Of a DNA stretch of 42,500 nucleotides, positions 2,196 to 27,806 are shown piece after piece; position 1 is the first letter of the stretch; the number at the start of each line of letters is the position of its first letter. Origin of the DNA: Bacillota bacterium (GTDB lineage: Bacteria; Actinomycetota; Aquicultoria; Aquicultorales; Aquicultoraceae). Under the pieces are notes generated by a model. It saw only the letters and a program-made list of their open reading frames with translations, searched no databases and was not told the origin of the DNA. Where the stretch lies: assembly GCA_023511485.1 (NCBI GenBank), contig JAIMBH010000018.1, forward strand, positions 1 to 42,500. The letters run 5' to 3'. The translations under genes and the position numbers were made by a program.

Positions 2196-2876
2196 CTACT
2201 TCCAGCCCTGCTCGTCAGTGATTAAGACAGGCTCGTAGAATGTCACATACCCGCCTCTTGGGTCTGGAACAAATCTGTTGTAGATACTTAACTGATTTAT
2301 ACCTGCCGTATCAATACTAAAGGTCTTAAGTAGATCGCTTTTTGAAATTTCAAGTATGGCCAGCTGCTCGCCATCGCCGTAGACAAGAAGCTTTCTAGTA
2401 TATCCTTTATTGCCATCTGGGATACCGGCTGATAAGGTTACTGTTTCATATTTTCCTTCCAGGTTATACATCGCGGCTTCATGTGTATATTCTAGGCAGA
2501 TTCCCTCGTCATACTCCTGGCCACCGATTTTAACTGGATTGTTTATGGATAGTTTTTGACCCCCTTCATATGCTTTTAACTTAACCCATTTATTAGATAA
2601 CTCTGTATCTGTTGACCCTTCATGTTCTGCAAGCCAGTCGTCGTAATCTTTTTTGTTTAACGTGCTTTTTTCAGTTTCAGTAGTTGTTGTGGCCTGAGTC
2701 GTCGGGGTAGTTGCGGATGTACTGCTGGCCAATGATGTAGTGGTAGATCGGTCATCTGTGACTTCTAGAACAGGCCGCTTAAGTATAACCGATGACATAA
2801 TAAGCGTGCAGGCTACTACAAATAAGGCTAGGGCTCCAATTGTTAATTTTGCCGATCTTGGCCATTTTTGCTTCAT
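2196..2876 (-). CDS. Membrane-anchored protein with NPCBM-like carbohydrate-binding domain
   Basis: The protein has 226 residues. A basic N-terminus and one hydrophobic helix (about residues 10-32) anchor it, followed by a Ser/Thr-rich linker (about 42-70) typical of surface proteins. The C-terminal region (about 90-222) resembles the NPCBM/NEW2 beta-sandwich: LSINNPVKIGGQEYDEGI, then a strand region with ETVTLSAGIPDG, LLVYGDGE and INQLSIYNRF. NPCBM domains are presumed sugar binders attached to glycosidases; no enzyme domain is present here. It lies divergently from the Ser/Thr kinase, with 165 bases between them. The fold assignment is moderately sure and the ligand is unknown. Confidence 0.65.
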   Translation of the reverse strand: MKQKWPRSAKLTIGALALFVVACTLIMSSVILKRPVLEVTDDRSTTTSLASSTSATTPTTQATTTTETEKSTLNKKDYDDWLAEHEGSTDTELSNKWVKLKAYEGGQKLSINNPVKIGGQEYDEGICLEYTHEAAMYNLEGKYETVTLSAGIPDGNKGYTRKLLVYGDGEQLAILEISKSDLLKTFSIDTAGINQLSIYNRFVPDPRGGYVTFYEPVLITDEQGWK

Positions 2877-3041
2877 AAGGGCGATCTTTTTATACCAGCA
2901 GCTGCTTCACAAATTTAGTAATTAGATACCCTTATCAACGTGGATTATGCGAGGTACGTGCGAACCTTTACACTATTAAATTAATTAAGCAACCTTTTAA
3001 CCGGGTATAAAAAATAAGCCTAGTTTTTATTAGAAACGGGA

Positions 3042-4475
3042 GTGTGTTTTTTATTGCTTTTTCAAGAAGTGCTTCCTGCCAATACCATGCTCCATAACGG
3101 TCGCTACAGAATAGAAAGCGTACATGGTCACGGCGGCTTTGGTGTTACCTACCGGGCAGTTCACGTTCACCTTAAGATGCCCGTTGCCATCAAAGAGTTT
3201 TATCCGCAGGATTATTTAAAAAGGGATAGAGTATCCGGGAAGGTCCTTTTGGCCGATCATGATAAACGATCCTACGAAAGAGGTATCGAGCGTTTCCTTA
3301 CCGAAGGGAGAATATTGGCAAGGCTGAACCATCCTAATATAGTCAAGGTGTTTGATTACTTTTCTGAGAACGGGACTGCTTATCTAGTGATGGAATTTAT
3401 AGATGGTATAACGCTAAAGGATGAGATGCAAGAGCATGGTGGTTCCCTGGATGAAAAGAGGGTTCGGGTGGTTTTTGAAAAGCTGGCAGATGCGCTTGAA
3501 GCAGTCCATGAAGTGGGTATCTTTCATCTCGATCTTAAACCCTCAAATGTTCTTATTTCTCGCGACGGGCGGGTTATACTAATAGATTTTGGCTCGGCGA
3601 GGTACCGGCTAAGAAGCAGTACGACGAGGATGTTTTCCCCCGAGTATGCCGCTCCAGAGGTTATAGCCGGTGGTAACGTTGGGCCTGAGAGCGATATATT
3701 CGAACTAGGCATGATGCTGTATGAGATGTTAACGGGCGAGCTTCCGCCGGGTGCGTCTACCCGCATGCAAGAAGATAAATGGAAGCCGGAAGGTTTGGAA
3801 GAGCCCTGGAAAAGCTTGCTGGCTGCATCACTGCAAATTGATCAGAGCAAGCGCCCGAAAGACGTTCGGATGCTTCTAAACATCTGGAAGGCCCAAACGG
3901 CCAAAGAATCAGCGGCAACTATTAAAGTTAATTCACCACCAACCAGAGTTCTTAGGTCGGCTATCCAAAAAGAGCAAACAACTGCAAAGAAAACGCCTAA
4001 ACTGTTTCCAGCACTTAAGAAGCCTAGGGTGAGCGACAATCTGTCTCACCAATTATCGCGGGTGATGCGTTTTATGCTGGGTCTTCTTGTAGGCATGTTT
4101 ATTCTTACTATGGTACTTCAAACTCTGGGCAGGATTGCATCGGTGGTAATGAGCACAGTAGGGTCTAAGGTGAACGAAGGAATCAGCACGGTAGAATCTG
4201 GGATAAGGGAAGCAGAGTCTGAGCTATACGAATCCATCGGTGTTTTTTGGCTTAATATAGGCCAATATGACAGGGCACCTGACATGTTGCTAAAGGCTAT
4301 CGAGCTTGACCCCGGCGACGCTGATGCATACGCTAAGCTTGGATGGGTTAGGTTAAACCAAGGAAGATTCAATGATGCCGCCATAGATTTTAATAAGGCT
4401 CTTGCCCTGGATCCGAATTGCAAGGATGCCGAATTGGGTAGCCAGTATCTATCGCATGCAAGACAGCACAACTAA
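3042..4475 (+). CDS. Membrane Ser/Thr protein kinase with extracytoplasmic TPRs
   Basis: A Hanks-type kinase domain spans about residues 20-275: glycine loop GHGGFG (29-34), lysine in VAIKEF (Lys51), catalytic loop HLDLKPSN (162-169), DFG (182-184) and the PEYAAPE segment. The usual HRD is HLD, so it is a non-RD kinase; Asp164, Lys166 and Asn169 are kept. A basic linker leads to one membrane helix (about 346-366) and then two TPRs (about 398-470). The kinase is cytoplasmic and the TPRs are on the other side, where they may sense or bind a partner. Start choice is uncertain: GTG 3042 gives 477 residues, while GTG 3069 would give the compact N-terminus this family often has. Neither has a strong ribosome site. 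No phosphatase gene is nearby. Confidence 0.9.
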   Translation: MCFLLLFQEVLPANTMLHNGRYRIESVHGHGGFGVTYRAVHVHLKMPVAIKEFYPQDYLKRDRVSGKVLLADHDKRSYERGIERFLTEGRILARLNHPNIVKVFDYFSENGTAYLVMEFIDGITLKDEMQEHGGSLDEKRVRVVFEKLADALEAVHEVGIFHLDLKPSNVLISRDGRVILIDFGSARYRLRSSTTRMFSPEYAAPEVIAGGNVGPESDIFELGMMLYEMLTGELPPGASTRMQEDKWKPEGLEEPWKSLLAASLQIDQSKRPKDVRMLLNIWKAQTAKESAATIKVNSPPTRVLRSAIQKEQTTAKKTPKLFPALKKPRVSDNLSHQLSRVMRFMLGLLVGMFILTMVLQTLGRIASVVMSTVGSKVNEGISTVESGIREAESELYESIGVFWLNIGQYDRAPDMLLKAIELDPGDADAYAKLGWVRLNQGRFNDAAIDFNKALALDPNCKDAELGSQYLSHARQHN

Positions 4476-6854: not shown

Positions 6855-7090
6855 GCAAAAAACCAACTGCCTCAAGAAAAATAGCACCTGTAACAAACTG
6901 CCCGACTGTTTATACGGCATCGTCTTGCTCCGGGAGGCTAAACCTACTACTGTTTTCTTCCCTTAATTATGCCTTGGGTAGTTAGTAAGGTTGTGGTAAT
7001 ATTGGGTCTAAGTCTAAGTCTAAGCCCAAATTTATTACAATAAATTAAGTGCATTTAAGTGCAGTCGTTGTAGAAAGAAAGGAAGCAAAG

Positions 7091-10000
7091 ATGGAATCTC
7101 GCAATCAAGCACACCCCAGCTACTGTCTTTCTGTATCTATGACCGGATTTGGCAAAGACGATTCCCAATTACCATTCTCGCGACGTGATCGTTTTAACGT
7201 ACTCCTGGCAGAACTAATCAACTCCCACCTTGAAAAACTTGAACTGACCGATGTTTTTCTAAAATCGATATCCGATGGGTGGCTGCTTCTTACAAACCAG
7301 ACCGGCAAGGTTTCTAGCCTGTGCTGTCTTGCAACCATTATAGCGAGCAGTTTTAAAGACGAGATCAGCAAGAGCATAGGAATCACCAAAGATCATGTGC
7401 CACAGCTTAATCTGGGCATCGCATCTGGTAGGGATAGGCTGGTTGAGTTTGCCGATAGACAAAGAGATTGGATAGGCGATAGCGCAAGGAAGGCCAAGCG
7501 CCTGGCTTTGTTTGGCAACTTGGGCGAGATAATTATAGATGAAGAAGTAAATCGTGAGGCGATGGCAGTATTCAGCACTGAAGCCATCGGATTGAATGGG
7601 CAGCCATCAGGTCGATACAAGTTAGGTCATGTCAAAACCGATTTGGCCGCAGAGTCCTTATATCCCGATCGCTTTATCTATACTTTGAATGTTATCGGTG
7701 AAAGCGAGAAAGCATCTGCTGTTGTTCAAAAGGTAGAGGAGAGACTATTAAATGCGATTAGCCGGCAGGACGAGGCTAAGTATGCCAATATTGATAGTTG
7801 GAATCGGCTCATCGCAAATATCTCCGACTACTCAATTGTTCTTAAAGTGCTTACGAACATTAGGGCCGCCGGGTTATCTCCCGATGTTGTCACTTATAAC
7901 AATTTAATCTCTAAAGCCTCAGATTATAATGTGGCTGTGGGCTGGCTCGATACAATGCAAAAAGAGAGCATTAGACCTACTGATGCAACTTTCAAGATTA
8001 TCTCCGCTAAGGCGACTGATTACAGTATGGCAATATCGCTGCTTGAGCTTATGAAACGAAATAGCATAAAGCCAGATGCCCTTATCTACTGCAACATAAT
8101 CTCCAAGTCGCCTGATTATATAACAGCAAAGCGCTGGATGGATATGATGCAAAAAGATGGAGTCAAGCCTACTGCTTCAATATATAACGCGCTTATTGCA
8201 AAATCCCCTGATTACGAGACAGCAGATTTATGGCTGGGCCATATGTTAAGGGAAGGTATACAGCTAAATAGGTCAACCTATAGTGCGATGATCTCTAAAA
8301 CGCACGTTTACTCTGCTGCAAAGTACTGGTTTGAAGAGATGTTAAGGGATGGTATCCAGCCAAATCTGGCTATGTATAATAAGCTTTTATCTAAGACTAT
8401 AGAATATGCAGTGGCCAGGTCAGTCTTAGATGATATGAAGAAAGAAGGCATCCAGCCAAATATAGTTACATATAATGCTCTTATAACGAAAGCACACAGT
8501 TTTGAAGAAGCAAAGTCTGTACTGGAAGAGATGCAGAATGAGGGTATTCAGCCTAATACCGATAGCTATGCAAGGCTGTTTAGTAAAAATCTTGTTGGCA
8601 GATCTGCTGAGGAGATACTCCTCTGGTATAGGGCCCAAGGTGTTGGCTCTGATGAACCTATTCAGGCTGCCATGGCTTCATACCGCAAGATCGGCCGCAT
8701 TGACGAGGCCCTGCGTCTGGCTGTCGAGTACCCTGGGCTTCAAACTTCCCGCAAGATGATCAGAGAGATAATGGCCGATGTGCTATCTTATCTAGAGACC
8801 ATGCAGGAGGAAGGCATTGAAGCTAGTGTTGCAAGTTATAATGCCCTGATATCAAAAGCCCCCTATTACGACACGGCAAGGGCGTGGTTTGAAGCTATGC
8901 GCAAGAAGGGTATCAGGCCAAATATCGTTACTTACAATGCGCTTATAGAAAAGTCTCCCGACTTTGACACTGCCAGAGCTTGGCTTGAGCTAATGAGGGC
9001 GGAGGGTATCCAACCGAACACTGATAACTATAAGGCTTTATTTAGTAAAGACCTCTCCAGCAAGCCGGTTGATAAGATTTTAAAGTGGTATGTATCTCAA
9101 GGGCACCAATCTGATGAGCCCATGCAGACCGCTATGGAGACATATAAAAGAAGCGGCCTGACCGATCGGGCTCTTTGTATCGCACTTGAGTATCCAAATA
9201 TGCAAGCCTCTCAGAGGCTAATAAGGGAGCATCTTGAGAGTATACTTTCTTACCTAGAGGTAATCAGAGAAGAGGGAGTCAAGCCAAACATCGCGACTTA
9301 TAGCGCCCTTATGTCAAGAGCACCTTACTATAACATAGCCGAGTCGTGGTTGGAGACTATGCGCAAGAAAGGCGTAAGACCCAACGCAGTTGCATATAAT
9401 ACCCTCATCTCTAAAGCACCTGATTACGATTCGGCTAAAGTGTGGCTGGATGTTATGCTTAGCGAAAATATTAAACCTACTGTTGTCACATATAGCGTCC
9501 TTATCTCTAAAGCACCTGACTTTAAAACTGCCAAGTCTTTACTGAATGCGATGCGCAAGAAGGGTTTGAAGCCAAATATTGTTACTTACAATGCGCTTAT
9601 ACTTAAAGCGCCCGACTTTGAGACGATAAAATCAATCCTTGAGATAATGGTGCAGGATGGTATTCGTCCTGATATTAATAGTTACAATGCTTTGATATTG
9701 AAAGCCCCTAATTACGAGACAGCAAAATCTTTACTTGAAGCCATGCAAAGGGATGGCATCCAACCCAATATTGTTAGCTACAATAGGCTGTTTAGTAAAA
9801 ACCTTGCTAATGTCTCGGCAGATGAGTTGCTTAGCTGGTACCTGTCTAAGAGATATCATCCCGAAGAGCCGGTTCAGGCTGCGATAGCCGCCTACAGGGA
9901 TGCTGGACTCATAGAGCAGGCTCTTCGCATGGCTCTAGAGTACCCCCATCTTCAGGTGGCTAGAAAATTAATACGGGATTGCAGGGACGATGCGCTCTCC

Positions 10001-10204
10001 TACTTTAAAGCAGCATCAGATAAGCATCCAAGGCATGCCAATGTCGACTATGCTTTAGGCATAGCTTATGTGGAATGTGGGAGGGACAAAGAAGCCGAGC
10101 CACACTTAAAACTGGCTCTTAGCTCGGCAAAACCCGGCCCGACAAGGGTCGTCATCGAGGAGTATATGCGCAAAATAGAGCGCGAGATGTCGCAGATGGT
10201 ATAG
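7091..10204 (+). CDS. PPR-array protein with degenerate nucleotidyl-cyclase-like N-terminal domain
   Basis: The protein has 1037 residues. Residues about 14-150 resemble a class III cyclase fold: SVSMTGFG (14-21), SDGW (61-64), GIASG (109-113) and GDSARKAKRL (129-138). The first metal Asp is replaced by Ser and the transition-state Asn by Arg, so it is probably inactive. From residue 264 come PPR units of the form PNIVTYNALISKAPDYETAK with an exact 32-residue period: seven (264-487), two (578-641) and five (732-891). Each array ends in a 90-residue module with a conserved FSK, EE/DEP, ALEYP and LIR pattern. A TPR-like tail closes the protein. There is no signal peptide, so it is cytoplasmic. 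PPRs bind single-stranded RNA. ATG 7091 is preferred (AAGGAAG upstream) over GTG 7049. It ends 85 bases before rnpB. Target and role are unknown. Confidence 0.9.
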   Translation: MESRNQAHPSYCLSVSMTGFGKDDSQLPFSRRDRFNVLLAELINSHLEKLELTDVFLKSISDGWLLLTNQTGKVSSLCCLATIIASSFKDEISKSIGITKDHVPQLNLGIASGRDRLVEFADRQRDWIGDSARKAKRLALFGNLGEIIIDEEVNREAMAVFSTEAIGLNGQPSGRYKLGHVKTDLAAESLYPDRFIYTLNVIGESEKASAVVQKVEERLLNAISRQDEAKYANIDSWNRLIANISDYSIVLKVLTNIRAAGLSPDVVTYNNLISKASDYNVAVGWLDTMQKESIRPTDATFKIISAKATDYSMAISLLELMKRNSIKPDALIYCNIISKSPDYITAKRWMDMMQKDGVKPTASIYNALIAKSPDYETADLWLGHMLREGIQLNRSTYSAMISKTHVYSAAKYWFEEMLRDGIQPNLAMYNKLLSKTIEYAVARSVLDDMKKEGIQPNIVTYNALITKAHSFEEAKSVLEEMQNEGIQPNTDSYARLFSKNLVGRSAEEILLWYRAQGVGSDEPIQAAMASYRKIGRIDEALRLAVEYPGLQTSRKMIREIMADVLSYLETMQEEGIEASVASYNALISKAPYYDTARAWFEAMRKKGIRPNIVTYNALIEKSPDFDTARAWLELMRAEGIQPNTDNYKALFSKDLSSKPVDKILKWYVSQGHQSDEPMQTAMETYKRSGLTDRALCIALEYPNMQASQRLIREHLESILSYLEVIREEGVKPNIATYSALMSRAPYYNIAESWLETMRKKGVRPNAVAYNTLISKAPDYDSAKVWLDVMLSENIKPTVVTYSVLISKAPDFKTAKSLLNAMRKKGLKPNIVTYNALILKAPDFETIKSILEIMVQDGIRPDINSYNALILKAPNYETAKSLLEAMQRDGIQPNIVSYNRLFSKNLANVSADELLSWYLSKRYHPEEPVQAAIAAYRDAGLIEQALRMALEYPHLQVARKLIRDCRDDALSYFKAASDKHPRHANVDYALGIAYVECGRDKEAEPHLKLALSSAKPGPTRVVIEEYMRKIEREMSQMV
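7880..10033 (+). repeat. 96-base PPR-coding repeats in three blocks, each closed by a 270-base module
   Basis: Units of 96 bases start at 7880, 7976, 8072, 8168, 8264, 8360 and 8456; at 8822 and 8918; and at 9284, 9380, 9476, 9572 and 9668. The closing modules occupy 8552-8821, 9014-9283 and about 9764-10033. Modules 1 and 2 have exactly the same length and the third fits to the point where the TPR-like tail begins. The pattern is visible at protein level; at DNA level the copies have diverged, which argues for an old array with varying copy number. Confidence 0.9.
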
Positions 10205-23497: not shown

Positions 23498-23753
23498 CTC
23501 CATCCCTTCTTCGCTGCAAAAACAAGGATATTTTTGTTGCTTTCTGAATACCCATGTACAGGATGCTTAATCGGGTATGAAAATAGCTTTTAGCATTGCC
23601 GTATCTTCTTGAAAAGACTACTTTTCATAACAGAGGGGGTAAACTGGGCTCTAAGTTATGTTATTATTATCTATGGTTTGCTACCTTTGCAAAAGGAATG
23701 TTCATTTCACGTTGTTGGCAGAATCAAGGGATTAAGGAATTGGTAAGAGGTAT

Positions 23754-25202
23754 ATGATCAATGCACCAATAAGAGCAGCACGGGACTTAGCCAAGGCAAT
23801 AATCATAGCTCTCCTACTTAGCTTATTGATTCCGGCTTGGGTTTTTGCATCCGACAGCTGGAGTCTTTATCAACACGATGCCAGGCATTCTGGTCAGAGT
23901 GATTTTAAGGGGCCGGGTAGTGCCAGCATTCTTTGGCTGGTAGCATTTGGCGCAACTGGGAAGCCGACGACACCCATTGCCGTCTCGGCAGACAGTAAGC
24001 TTTTCGTTGGCGTTGAGGTCAGCCCTCCAAAAGAATCCACCACAACGACTACTACTGAAAAGAAAGACGCCACAGGCCATTCAGGAGTATTTGCTTTTAG
24101 CAAGAATAAAAATGTTCTCTGGGTATCAAAAGCAAGCGGCAGGGTATCGGGCCCACTTGCTGTCGGCAAAGGGGTGGTCTATGCAGTTGTAAATACGGAC
24201 TTAGTCGCCCTTAATGAGAAGGATGGCTCAATTAAGTGGACGGTTCCTTTAGGCAACGAGTCATTGTGCGGAGTCATGCTGGATAAAGACGGCAACGTGT
24301 ACACCGCTACTCTTGAAGGCCGGACCTTATACGCAGTTACAGCCGGCGGCAGCGTTAAATGGAAGTACACTGCTGATGGGCAGATAGATAGCCCGCCCGC
24401 AGTCGGCGACGACGGGACAGTATATTTTACGGCGAAAGACCTAAGCCTTTATGCTGTTACACGGGAAGGCTCATTAAAATGGAAATTTAAAGTTACTGAG
24501 CCTGGTACCGATCAGCTAACCGCACCTGCTATTGGCGAGGATGGCACGGTGTATTTTGGAGGTAGCAGGGATGCAGGGTACTTGACCAAAGAAGATGCCG
24601 TAAAAGTTCAAAGGGAATACCTTTATGCCGTTGGATCTGATGGGAAGCTGAAATGGAGATACCAAACAAAAGGCAAGATGCTCACGATGCCCGCTATTGC
24701 GCGGGATGGGACCATTATATTTAGTACAACAAGCCTTAATTACACAGAGGAGCGGGATTTTATTCTTGGCAACTGTTATGTTCAGGCAATTAATCCGGAC
24801 GGCACAGAAAAGTGGGTTTTTGATACGGTTGACAATGCTATAACTATTCCTCCCATCATTGGAAGCGATGGCCGTGTTTACGTAAGTTCAACAGAAGGGG
24901 CAATGACTTGCATATCCAAACAGGGGATTATGATTTGGAGGGCGAAAGTTGGCGGAAGGGCCTCAATCGGCCCCAAAGGCATATTTTATATAACTGGCCC
25001 AACATCCATAGCTGCAGTTGCCGATAAGGAACTAACAAGGAGCCTGAACAAGGAAAAGAGTGCTGCTAGCACAAAGGGCAGCGGAACCTCTCCCGCCAAT
25101 TATTTATCCAATCTTGTCTATATTTTGCCTGTTGCTATAGCCCTTGGAATCGGATATCTGTTTAAGATCAGGCTTGGCACGCAAAAGGAAGACACAAAAT
25201 AG
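23754..25202 (+). CDS. Exported PQQ-type beta-propeller protein with C-terminal membrane anchor
   Basis: The protein has 482 residues. A signal sequence (about 1-32, ending VFASDSW) is followed by repeated blades of the PQQ-like pattern: GDDGTVYF, LYAVTREGSLKWKFKV, LYAVGSDGKLKWRY, AINPDGTEKWVF and others, about seven to eight blades. A Thr-rich insertion (STTTTTTEK) breaks the first blade. A membrane helix near the end (VYILPVAIALGIGYLF) anchors it. The typical enzyme PQQ-binding residues were not evident, so it is a structural or binding propeller like BamB rather than a dehydrogenase. The next gene, on the same strand after a 140-base gap, encodes a multihaem cytochrome, so it could be part of the same surface assembly. 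Confidence 0.82.
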   Translation: MINAPIRAARDLAKAIIIALLLSLLIPAWVFASDSWSLYQHDARHSGQSDFKGPGSASILWLVAFGATGKPTTPIAVSADSKLFVGVEVSPPKESTTTTTTEKKDATGHSGVFAFSKNKNVLWVSKASGRVSGPLAVGKGVVYAVVNTDLVALNEKDGSIKWTVPLGNESLCGVMLDKDGNVYTATLEGRTLYAVTAGGSVKWKYTADGQIDSPPAVGDDGTVYFTAKDLSLYAVTREGSLKWKFKVTEPGTDQLTAPAIGEDGTVYFGGSRDAGYLTKEDAVKVQREYLYAVGSDGKLKWRYQTKGKMLTMPAIARDGTIIFSTTSLNYTEERDFILGNCYVQAINPDGTEKWVFDTVDNAITIPPIIGSDGRVYVSSTEGAMTCISKQGIMIWRAKVGGRASIGPKGIFYITGPTSIAAVADKELTRSLNKEKSAASTKGSGTSPANYLSNLVYILPVAIALGIGYLFKIRLGTQKEDTK

Positions 25203-25342
25203 CCCACTTTTTATCCATAAATTACCATTTAACACCATTTACCTGCGTTTTGACCTAAATTATTGTCTTTTACCTGCCGATAAATAAAGGGATGAATCCT
25301 TGAAATTCGGATATCTATGGCTGGCGGCATATAGGGTATAGC

Positions 25343-26716
25343 ATGGTTAAGCGTATGCTTATAATAGCTGCCGTTATCAATTTATGCCTGACCACGATAT
25401 CATACGCAGCAAATATTGTTGCACAGAACACGCACAGCACGCAGACCGCCGATTTGATGACCTTCGGCAAATCTTCGCAGACAGAAAGTAAATCTTTAGA
25501 AAATGCTAAAGCAGACCTTAATGGAGTCTATGTTTCTGCACCTTCAAGGTGCAAGGAATGTCATAATATTGATAATATCGGCGGGTACAATACAATATCG
25601 GTAGTTGGAAACAGTGATGAAGCCTGCGACTGGTGTCACAGCGAAGGTGCGGCATCTATGTGTGCAGTCAGCCTGGACAACGACGACATGAGCATGGCCG
25701 AGCGCAGCGTAGGTCACAGCCGCGGGTTTGGTGTAGATACAGGTAAGTGGCAATCACCTGATGATACTTACCCAGCCTTTACACCCAAGTATTGGCGGGG
25801 TGGAATGTCCTGTCTGGATTGCCACCCTGCCCATAATTACAAGAACCAAACATTTAGTCATTCAGAAAAGATTACCCTGTTTTCCCGTGCACTTGATAGT
25901 AGCCCGAAGACGATTTTAAAGTTGAATCCAGACCGGGAGGTCGACAGGCGAACAGGGCTTGAGATTCCCGATAGCTACGAAGGAAATTACTCAAGTACGC
26001 TTCAGTATCCGACCAATACAATTTCGATAAATTGGGATAGCTATGAGTCGCTTCAGATAAGTTCCCCAGAGGAGCGGCTAAATGTGATAAATAGAATGTG
26101 CGTTGACTGCCATGATGGAAATGTTGGGCTGCATGATACTGTAAATCTTGTCTTTTCGGAGGATAGCGCGCTGCGCGGCAAATCCGGTCTTGACGCTTAT
26201 GTGAGGGCCAGCGCGCACGATGCACGGCCCGAGCGTTGCCAGAAAGAGACTATATTCGATCCGGAGGACGGGCTCAATCATGGACCGGATTGCAGGAGCT
26301 GCCATAGCGGAAGCAGTGACTGTGATATCTGCCATGCACTGTCAAAAATAAAGAAGGCAAGCGGTGTTGAAGGACTAATGGATGACTCTGATTCAGGCTC
26401 TGCTGGCTCGGGTAAGGCTGACTCAGGTAAGCAGAAGAATGCCATGGCTGACCTCAATGTTTCACCTGATTGTATAAGCCTAGGTATTTCCTGGCCCCAC
26501 CGCACGCTGGGATGGAAAATGCTAAAGGACGAGCTGTTTGGTATCGACTATGATGGTCGAGAAATCAGGGTCGGCCAACTCAGAAGGTTCTCAGTTGAGA
26601 AGGTATCGCTTACACCAAGTCCAGCGCAAGACCTCGACTCGGTTTGTCTTGATTGCCATAATTCAGCCGTATGGAATCCCGCCTCTAAAGAAACCTTCAT
26701 AAAAGGTCTCCCATAA
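25343..26716 (+). CDS. Exported seven-haem cytochrome c
   Basis: The protein has 457 residues. A signal peptide (about 1-22, ending SYA) leads to seven CxxCH haem-binding motifs: CKECH (70-74), CDWCH (95-99), CLDCH (157-161), CVDCH (253-257), CRSCH (317-321), CDICH (327-331) and CLDCH (435-439). A Ser/Gly/Asp-rich segment (347-366) separates the last haem region from the rest. No membrane helix or lipobox is seen after the signal, so it should be secreted or wall-bound. It probably carries electrons across the cell envelope. No cytochrome maturation genes are in the window. The haem count is read directly; the electron partner is unknown. Confidence 0.92.
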   Translation: MVKRMLIIAAVINLCLTTISYAANIVAQNTHSTQTADLMTFGKSSQTESKSLENAKADLNGVYVSAPSRCKECHNIDNIGGYNTISVVGNSDEACDWCHSEGAASMCAVSLDNDDMSMAERSVGHSRGFGVDTGKWQSPDDTYPAFTPKYWRGGMSCLDCHPAHNYKNQTFSHSEKITLFSRALDSSPKTILKLNPDREVDRRTGLEIPDSYEGNYSSTLQYPTNTISINWDSYESLQISSPEERLNVINRMCVDCHDGNVGLHDTVNLVFSEDSALRGKSGLDAYVRASAHDARPERCQKETIFDPEDGLNHGPDCRSCHSGSSDCDICHALSKIKKASGVEGLMDDSDSGSAGSGKADSGKQKNAMADLNVSPDCISLGISWPHRTLGWKMLKDELFGIDYDGREIRVGQLRRFSVEKVSLTPSPAQDLDSVCLDCHNSAVWNPASKETFIKGLP

Positions 26717-26858
26717 GGTTGTAAAAGATGCTCCTGCTAATTTTGCAAATAACTACCGGTTAAAACTCCGTTTACATCAAAATTAGTATGGGAACAAAAC
26801 CGAAAGCCATATCTGGCCGGTGGTCCTTCCTTTTATTAAATACATACAGGAGAGTGTC

Positions 26859-27806
26859 ATGCCTGAATTTGATATAGTTTCTATTGGAGAATGCATGGTG
26901 GAATTCTATAGCGATAAGTCTTTTGTAGAAGCCGACCTTTTCCATAAATCTTATGGAGGAGATACCTTGAATACCTTAGTGGCGGCATCGAGGTTGGGGT
27001 CTAGGACCGGCTACCTTACGAGAGTTGGGGAGGATGATTTTGCACCTTTCCTTCTTCAGGGATGGCTTAATGAAAGAATTGATTTATCCCTAGTAAAAAT
27101 TATCCCCGGATTAAAAAACGGTGTTTATTTTGTGTCGGCATTTGAGGGAGGCGGGTACGACTACGCATATTACAGCCAGGGCAGTGCTGCTTCGACCTTA
27201 TCGGTTGACGATATCGATACCGAGTATTTGGCTGCTGCAAGGTATCTTTTTATTACAGGGATAAGTCAGGGTATATCGAATAGCTGCAGGGATGCAGTTT
27301 TTGAAGCCTGCCGGCTGGTTAAAGAGAACAAAACCGGTGATGTATCATATGCACCTAATTTTAGAGCGCACCTTTGGTCAATAGAGGAGGCTAAAAAGGC
27401 TTTCCAGGAAGTCTTACCCTTTATTGACATTATATTTTTAGAACATCCTTTTGAGTCTGGTAAAATAGTGGGCATTGAAGACCCGGAAGAGCTCATAAGG
27501 GCACTCTGGCAGCAGGGTATCCGGGTTGTTGCATTAAACCTCGGCAGGGATGGACATATTATCGGCGAGAGGCACTCAGGAGTAATTGGCAAGGTCGAGG
27601 CGCTTAAGGTAGATAAGGTAGTAGATAAAACAGGTGCTGCTGATGCGTTTTGCGGAGCTTTTCTACACGGACTTGCCAGGGGCTTCGATATATTTCTGGC
27701 CGCACAGCTAGGGAGCATTATGGCGGGTTTAAAAATGACCGGTCGCGGATCGATTGCCTCAATGCCAGGCCATGATGATGTTTATCGGGTTTTTGAAGCT
27801 GCATAA
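26859..27806 (+). CDS. PfkB-family sugar kinase (2-keto-3-deoxygluconate kinase-like)
   Basis: The protein has 315 residues from ATG 26859, where AGGAGAG precedes it; a GTG upstream would add 13 residues. The N-terminal motif SIGECMVEF and YGGDTLNTLVAASRLG is typical of sugar kinases of this group. The second signature is DKTGAADAFCGAFLHGL, where the normal GAGDAF has Ala in place of Gly but keeps the catalytic Asp. It should phosphorylate a sugar acid or ribose-like sugar with ATP. No aldolase or sugar catabolic gene is adjacent, so the substrate cannot be named. Confidence 0.85.
   Translation: MPEFDIVSIGECMVEFYSDKSFVEADLFHKSYGGDTLNTLVAASRLGSRTGYLTRVGEDDFAPFLLQGWLNERIDLSLVKIIPGLKNGVYFVSAFEGGGYDYAYYSQGSAASTLSVDDIDTEYLAAARYLFITGISQGISNSCRDAVFEACRLVKENKTGDVSYAPNFRAHLWSIEEAKKAFQEVLPFIDIIFLEHPFESGKIVGIEDPEELIRALWQQGIRVVALNLGRDGHIIGERHSGVIGKVEALKVDKVVDKTGAADAFCGAFLHGLARGFDIFLAAQLGSIMAGLKMTGRGSIASMPGHDDVYRVFEAA

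Follow-up and report, generated by a model that had tools for sequence, protein, structure and literature searches.

The 42,500-nucleotide stretch of DNA analyzed here (the window) corresponds to contig C18 of a 2.37-Mb genome of the phylum Actinomycetota (G000), and it encodes an exported β-propeller protein and, downstream on the same strand, an exported c-type cytochrome (Table 1). An original prediction, made from the DNA letters, had drawn attention to these two genes as lying 140 bases apart, to seven CxxCH heme motifs in the cytochrome, and to the apparent export of both proteins with the propeller anchored in the membrane, and each of these observations held. A degenerate CxxCH pattern gave 11 matches in the window, 7 of them inside the cytochrome gene, while 100 shuffled sequences averaged 2.33 matches and none reached 11. 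In a hydropathy scan the hydrophobic stretches of the propeller lie at residues 15 and 451, resembling a signal peptide and a C-terminal anchor, and the cytochrome has one signal-like stretch at residue 1 and no other. The cytochrome belongs to an expanded, unnamed seven-heme family of "Candidatus Aquicultor" and its kin, many members of which carry TGA, very probably read as selenocysteine (Sec), at a codon that specifies cysteine in the window.

Table 1. Features of the propeller-cytochrome locus, in window positions
Feature	Position	Strand	Basis or remark
Predicted exported BamB/PQQ_2-type β-propeller, 482 aa	23754-25202	+	Open reading frame (ORF), PF13360, hydropathy scan
Propeller residues 451-469, predicted C-terminal transmembrane anchor	25104-25160	+	Hydropathy scan
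Intergenic gap, 140 bases	25203-25342	+	27 bases in G002, 229 in G007, 599 in G008
Predicted exported seven-heme c-type cytochrome, 457 aa; Cys-form member of the Sec/Cys cytochrome family	25343-26716	+	
CxxCH 1	25550-25564	+	Pattern search
CxxCH 2	25625-25639	+	Pattern search
CxxCH 3	25811-25825	+	Pattern search
CxxCH 4	26099-26113	+	Pattern search
CxxCH 5	26291-26305	+	Pattern search
CxxCH 6	26321-26335	+	Pattern search
CxxCH 7	26645-26659	+	Pattern search
Cys299 codon, TGC; the site is TGA (very probably Sec) in 23 family genes	26237-26239	+	Alignment, BLASTP
Cys377 codon; invariant non-heme Cys (42/42 aligned members)	26471-26473	+	Alignment

The propeller and its downstream cytochrome

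The propeller is of the BamB/PQQ_2 kind by sequence, passing PF13360 (PQQ_2) with 81.3 bits against a gathering cut-off of 27.6, but it differs from those propellers in its C-terminal membrane anchor, its actinobacterial host, and a score far below the cut-off of the BamB equivalog TIGR03300 (66.5 versus 285.2 bits). At E < 1e-130 it was found in 9 of 60 genomes, all 9 among the 11 genomes of the window's own family. Named relatives of the cytochrome include "Candidatus Aquicultor primus," "A. secundus," and an Aquicultor sp.; with other actinobacterial metagenome-assembled genomes and one unidentified bacterium, a two-peptide contig scan brought the total to 26 relatives in 22 loci. A scan of the phylum drew 396 genomes and scored at most 3 candidates per genome, and phyla beyond Actinomycetota were reached solely by the two-peptide scan, so we do not claim that the family is restricted to Actinomycetota.

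The pair is conserved among these uncultured groundwater bacteria. In all seven genomes with this branch of the cytochrome (G000, G002, G004, G006, G007, G008, and G009), a matching cytochrome lies on the strand of the propeller and downstream of it, and these seven cytochromes form one supported clade on a 44-row tree. The two genes adjoin directly in four genomes, with no ORF of at least 90 aa between them; in the other three, one single-span protein of 233 to 240 aa intervenes. No terminator-like site was found on the plus strand within 23500-27000 of the window, where counts of such sites are near the shuffle level. Because G001 and G003 keep the propeller alone and all seven cytochromes have a propeller, the presence of the cytochrome in this sample implies that of the propeller, but not vice versa.

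Some further features of these loci may be recorded. The interposed genes lie at L038 2187-2909, L039 6173-6895, and L041 9842-10543, and the L041 protein, the sole one scanned, had no Pfam or NCBIfam match. A second seven-heme paralogue follows the first in four genomes (L036 10760-12349, L038 5176-6999, L039 2063-3886, and L041 12663-14384); two of these four lack a Cys at the Sec site, and the window has no such paralogue. A Cys in the signal region of the window cytochrome (residue 15, 25385-25387) is kept in all seven propeller-linked cytochromes, in a setting that weakly resembles a lipobox.

The TGA/Cys site of the cytochrome family

Frozen codons after TGA, the presence of tRNA-Sec and selB, and repeated changes between TGA and Cys together make it very probable that this is a family of selenoprotein cytochromes in which TGA encodes Sec, and the assignment of the window gene to its Cys branch is well supported. 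Reading through TGA in related loci brings out the family motif AYGHDxxxRH[U/C]xRxMxFNPED. In all, 10 genomes contribute 23 family genes with an in-frame TGA at the [U/C] codon: 21 of 46 rows from eight genomes (three each in G000, G002, G006, G008, and G009 and two each in G004, G007, and G010) and two further genes in G204 and G185, which belong to the same phylum and another class. Four of the 46 rows with fewer than five CxxCH motifs were left out (L046, L088, and one each from L047 and L083; two of them carry TGA), and the remaining 42 members divide at the site column into 19 with U, 19 with C, 2 with H, 1 with T, and 1 masked. U was aligned as C, which favors the pairing of U with C in this column; the flanking motifs are free of gaps in most rows. 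A BLASTP alignment of the window and G204 proteins, in which U was likewise entered as C, places the Sec of the latter opposite window Cys299.

From the first heme onward, the 42 frames include 19 TGA genes, all with TGA at the site codon, and one has an extra TGA 148 codons farther on; the frames had been cut wherever TAA or TAG occurred, and upstream of the first heme they were trimmed past the last TGA, so that other stops could not show there. When all stops were read through, TGA was the only stop inside the matches listed, except in two from G018:C11. In complete UGA genes, four CxxCH motifs precede the site and three follow it, which places it between hemes four and five. At least nine U/C changes were counted on the 44-row tree, a quick reconstruction with several long branches flagged, and its starred branches alone force at least six changes of the U label. 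The gene with the extra TGA (L083 1508-3376) loses its family resemblance after that codon, which suggests a frame break or an assembly error. A reading of TGA as Trp was ruled out: TGA ends 3 of 29 long ORFs in the window, and from the first heme on, that one extra codon is the sole in-frame TGA away from the site in the 42 aligned frames.

The codons AAT CCG GAG GAT follow TGA in 19 of 19 TGA genes (17 distinct 63-mers) versus 1 of 19 Cys genes, about 1.0 of 19 being expected to have those four codons from the codon use of the same genes. A hairpin with a GGA loop and a bulged A, 23 nt after TGA, has these codons at its top. Its minimum free energy (MFE) averages -16.4 kcal/mol in TGA genes (-12.1 to -21.3, 19/19) versus -11.3 in Cys genes, and the TGA-gene hairpin falls within the ranges given for selenocysteine insertion sequence (SECIS) elements in the available text of a 2026 review of prokaryotic selenoproteins, namely, a loop of 3 to 9 with an early G, 16 to 37 nt from UGA, and an MFE of at most -7.5 (PMC13188914). 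Pair counts over the hairpin gave 88.2% of cells paired, with three pairs changed on both sides and a covariation score that 1 in 500 shuffles attained; hairpins slid along the sequence as controls had 34 to 60% of cells paired. In 9 of 17 sequences the outermost pair does not form. A covariance model, R1, scored 51.8 to 68.3 bits on the 19 TGA genes (17 distinct) that are its own training set and 44.8 and 41.3 bits on the two left-out partial TGA genes, with Cys genes at 40 or below. It gave 20.3 bits for G185 and 16.2 bits for a relic in G018, and at E ≤ 1 it had no match in G204 or in the window gene. G204 lacks the FNPED residues; a seven-pair stem with a GUAC loop is present there, but 54 of 200 shuffles fold as well.

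The machinery for Sec accompanies these genes in most genomes. In G000 itself, contig C47 carries tRNA-Sec(tca) (76.2 bits), selB (415.1 bits), and selA (639.4 bits) side by side. Seven of the eight UGA-bearing genomes of the window's family have both tRNA-Sec (72.6 to 76.6 bits) and selB over the cut-off, with selB in pieces in G009, and selA was found in four of the five UGA-bearing genomes searched for it (G000, G009, G185, and G204, not G010), alongside tRNA-Sec in G185 and G204. Neither selA nor a selB over the cut-off was found in G001, where no family match reached E ≤ 1e-20; the best tRNA-Sec match there scored 47.3 bits, just over the gathering score (47), which is near many weak matches and far below the scores of at least 72 seen in the others. 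Since tRNA-Sec and selB are present in G003 and G005 but no TGA occurs among the cytochrome matches listed for them, these two genomes probably use Sec elsewhere.

All 42 members and both relatives from the other class have the second non-heme Cys, which in the window is Cys377 and precedes WPHRT. Seven non-CxxCH His columns are conserved both in the main group (31 rows, with U and C forms) and in the other-class relatives, and one of them directly precedes the Sec/Cys position (28 of 30 in the main group, 2 of 2 in the other class); additional conserved His occur in the main group alone. In the propeller-linked branch, six His columns outside CxxCH reach a conservation of 80% of rows or more. 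Such column counts may suggest heme ligands.

Comparison with known cytochromes and gene context

The closest parallel, and the sole Sec-bearing multiheme cytochrome found in the literature surveyed, is ExtKL of Geobacter, likewise a c-type cytochrome of an electron-transfer cluster and described as a multiheme cytochrome with one UGA-encoded Sec (PMC13188914, PMC5877670). ExtKL has five CxxCH motifs in its N-terminal part (PMC1914089), however, whereas the window family has seven hemes with the Sec between the fourth and the fifth. The ExtKL model NF040886 had no match in seven family proteins at E ≤ 1, nor was it among the best 25 of 27 families for 28 family members at E ≤ 10. In the available text of the 2026 review the word "cytochrome" occurs three times, and in the available part of its table ExtKL is the single multiheme cytochrome, with a CXXCH-containing MtrB/PioB-type barrel also present (PMC13188914). 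Two cultured members of the actinobacterial order Anaerosomatales have 18 and 17 multiheme genes, and the word start "seleno" is absent from the available part of that report (PMC9686372). Among open-license PMC papers we found no description of this cytochrome family. The family may be a second class of multiheme cytochromes with Sec: none of the matches seen relates it to ExtKL, Aquicultor-type actinobacteria have several of its paralogues per genome, and another actinobacterial class has members too. In such a class, a heme chain would drive a Sec (or Cys)/Cys redox center at the cell surface, and the propeller-linked branch would do without Sec.

Similarity to other multiheme proteins is local. 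The window cytochrome reached no Pfam cut-off, those of the doubled-CXXCH and cytochrome c7 families (PF09699 and PF14522) included, and had no NCBIfam match at E ≤ 1. PF09699 was over its cut-off in five of seven members scanned, reflecting shared heme-pair motifs, but its best stretches span 13 to 34 residues and the Sec/Cys site lies outside every model seen. Around the heme motifs there is also weak local similarity to NrfB/DmsE-type proteins, far below the cut-offs of those models. Sequence searches of solved structures gave nothing convincing for the window cytochrome (best E 0.38), a six-heme relative (best E 0.12), or the G204 cytochrome (best E 0.04), and a profile of the family (A1) matched no Protein Data Bank chain at E ≤ 0.01, a result that applies to solved nanowires of the OmcS/OmcE type too. 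Filaments of the OmcS/OmcE type had been considered from the nearby NHL and peptidyl-prolyl isomerase (PPIase) genes, and no usable literature support for them was found.

In G204, genes for 12-heme and 10-heme membrane cytochromes (weakly similar to NrfH) are followed on one strand by those for a single-span protein and an NHL-type propeller and then by the UGA cytochrome gene, and in G185 a 10-heme gene lies upstream of the UGA gene on the same strand. On contig C15 of G000, a UGA cytochrome is found with NHL-like and TPR-like genes, named by their resemblance to G002 homologues, and with a cyclophilin (PPIase) gene; 10- and 12-heme membrane cytochromes lie ∼10 kb away. Similar clusters in G005 and G014 contain a six-heme protein, and that of G014 resembles the G204 protein in the N-terminal heme region (46% over 139 residues). 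The gene dsrA exceeded its cut-off in 8 of the 13 genomes searched, among them G000, but it does not track the family, because it is present in G001, where no family match reached E ≤ 1e-20, and absent from G004, which has the family. Six- to seven-span proteins stand beside UGA cytochromes at L045 1024-2778, L048 6619-8328, L049 9204-10919, and L050 13851-15599, and that of L048, the sole one scanned, is over the cut-off for the fused MFS/spermidine synthase model NF037959. Elsewhere in the window, the plus strand at 7049-10204 encodes a protein of 1,051 aa in which pentatricopeptide repeats are numerous (PF13812, 275.9 bits) and which matches TPR close to its end; to our knowledge, pentatricopeptide repeat proteins of this size are unusual in bacteria.

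Proposed function and alternatives

On gene context alone, the family probably takes part in outward respiratory electron transfer: 10- and 12-heme cytochromes and NHL-type genes point to a route from quinol to the surface, a context that does not name the acceptor. The suggestion in the original prediction of a respiratory or extracellular assembly gains from the NrfH-like 10- and 12-heme membrane cytochromes near some relatives; a strict two-part unit is not supported, given the propellers that stand alone in G001 and G003. The pair, its conservation, the Sec/Cys site, the hairpin, and the Sec machinery are read from sequence; the electron route, the redox role of the site, and the scaffold role of the propeller are our inferences. 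Quinol would be oxidized by the NrfH-like 10- and 12-heme membrane cytochromes, and electrons would then pass to the seven-heme protein at the outer end of the chain. There, we tentatively propose, Sec or Cys and the invariant second Cys (377) may form a heme-wired selenol/thiol redox center that acts on a substrate or partner outside the membrane; in the Sec branches the conserved His directly before Sec may be a heme ligand. The propeller would be an anchored scaffold that holds the cytochrome at the surface and that may also have a role without it. Taken as a whole, this explanation, with the window pair as a conserved exported unit from the Cys branch of a Sec family, placed at the outer end of a respiratory chain, strikes us as reasonably probable.

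Several observations weigh against this explanation. All the evidence for it comes from sequence. An AlphaFold2 model of the window cytochrome (17 sequences) was unusable, with a mean predicted local distance difference test score of 32, and closeness of Cys299 to Cys377 is unsupported by it. In the propeller-linked branch the His before the site is present in none of seven members, and the site Cys is itself absent from one of the seven (G007). The propeller is kept in G001 and G003 with a pfkB kinase gene following it and no cytochrome between. As for the hairpin, one slid control had seven cells changed on both sides versus six in the hairpin, the RNAalifold covariation term is small (-0.1), and single hairpins compared with shuffles range from weak to moderate (z from -0.22 to -3.05, n = 8), the values of -0.46 and -0.22 belonging to the two other-class hairpins. 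Finally, G010, which is 77% complete and has two UGA genes, has neither tRNA-Sec nor selB over the cut-off, and selA was not found in it.

The alternative that fares best, although we regard it as somewhat unlikely, is that the cytochrome is a plain electron conduit, a wire or filament subunit in which Sec or Cys is a noncatalytic axial heme ligand or structural cross-link. Several paralogues per genome and variable inserts between conserved heme blocks fit a conduit, as does the propeller-linked branch, where six conserved non-CxxCH His for seven hemes leave one heme that may use another ligand. The main group and the other-class relatives, however, have seven such His, enough for seven hemes without Sec, and the use of costly Sec for wiring alone would be hard to explain. 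We are more doubtful that the family is a selenium- or sulfur-oxyanion reductase like the Geobacter Ext system, in which the Sec/Cys would help to reduce selenite, polysulfide, or a similar compound. ExtKL, for which a part in reducing selenite has been suggested by the authors who described it, lies in a cluster with 12- and 10-heme cytochromes (PMC5877670), and 12- and 10-heme genes precede the UGA cytochrome in G204; the occurrence of dsrA in the majority of genomes searched would also suit such a function. Yet the ExtKL model gave no match in the members scanned, the parallel in heme counts may be chance, the sequence names no substrate, and the distribution of dsrA does not follow that of the family.

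It seems similarly improbable that the propeller and the cytochrome are mere neighbors without a functional link. The propellers without a cytochrome in G001 and G003, direct-pair gaps that range from 27 to 599 bases, and the extra gene in three of seven pairs would all be compatible with simple proximity, but the cytochrome follows the propeller on the same strand in every genome that has it, and this branch is a single supported clade. Least probable by far is that the TGA codons are true stops, separating two proteins by reinitiation at an ATG four codons on or marking pseudogenes: that ATG is present in 17 of 19 TGA genes but also in 12 of 19 Cys genes, and so is a plain residue; the C-terminal fragments would hold three CxxCH motifs and no signal-like segment; and TGA replaces Cys at a single codon in 23 genes, with the next four codons frozen in TGA genes alone. 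Pseudogenes are ruled out for the family, and only G018:C11 looks like a relic, its cytochrome (2849-4146, L097) being interrupted by several TGA, TAG, and TAA stops.

The fixed Sec/Cys site of the family hints at a respiratory chemistry about which little is known. When TGA is read as a stop in ORF finding, the UGA genes are split into four-heme and three-heme pieces, and heme counts of such genomes would be wrong wherever the split goes unnoticed. The two genomes from another class (G185 and G204) make a test in culture plausible, and the natural, matched Sec and Cys versions within the family offer a way to ask what Sec does at multiheme proteins. A further family with repeated exchange between Sec and Cys would mean recurring selection on selenium chemistry at multiheme proteins.

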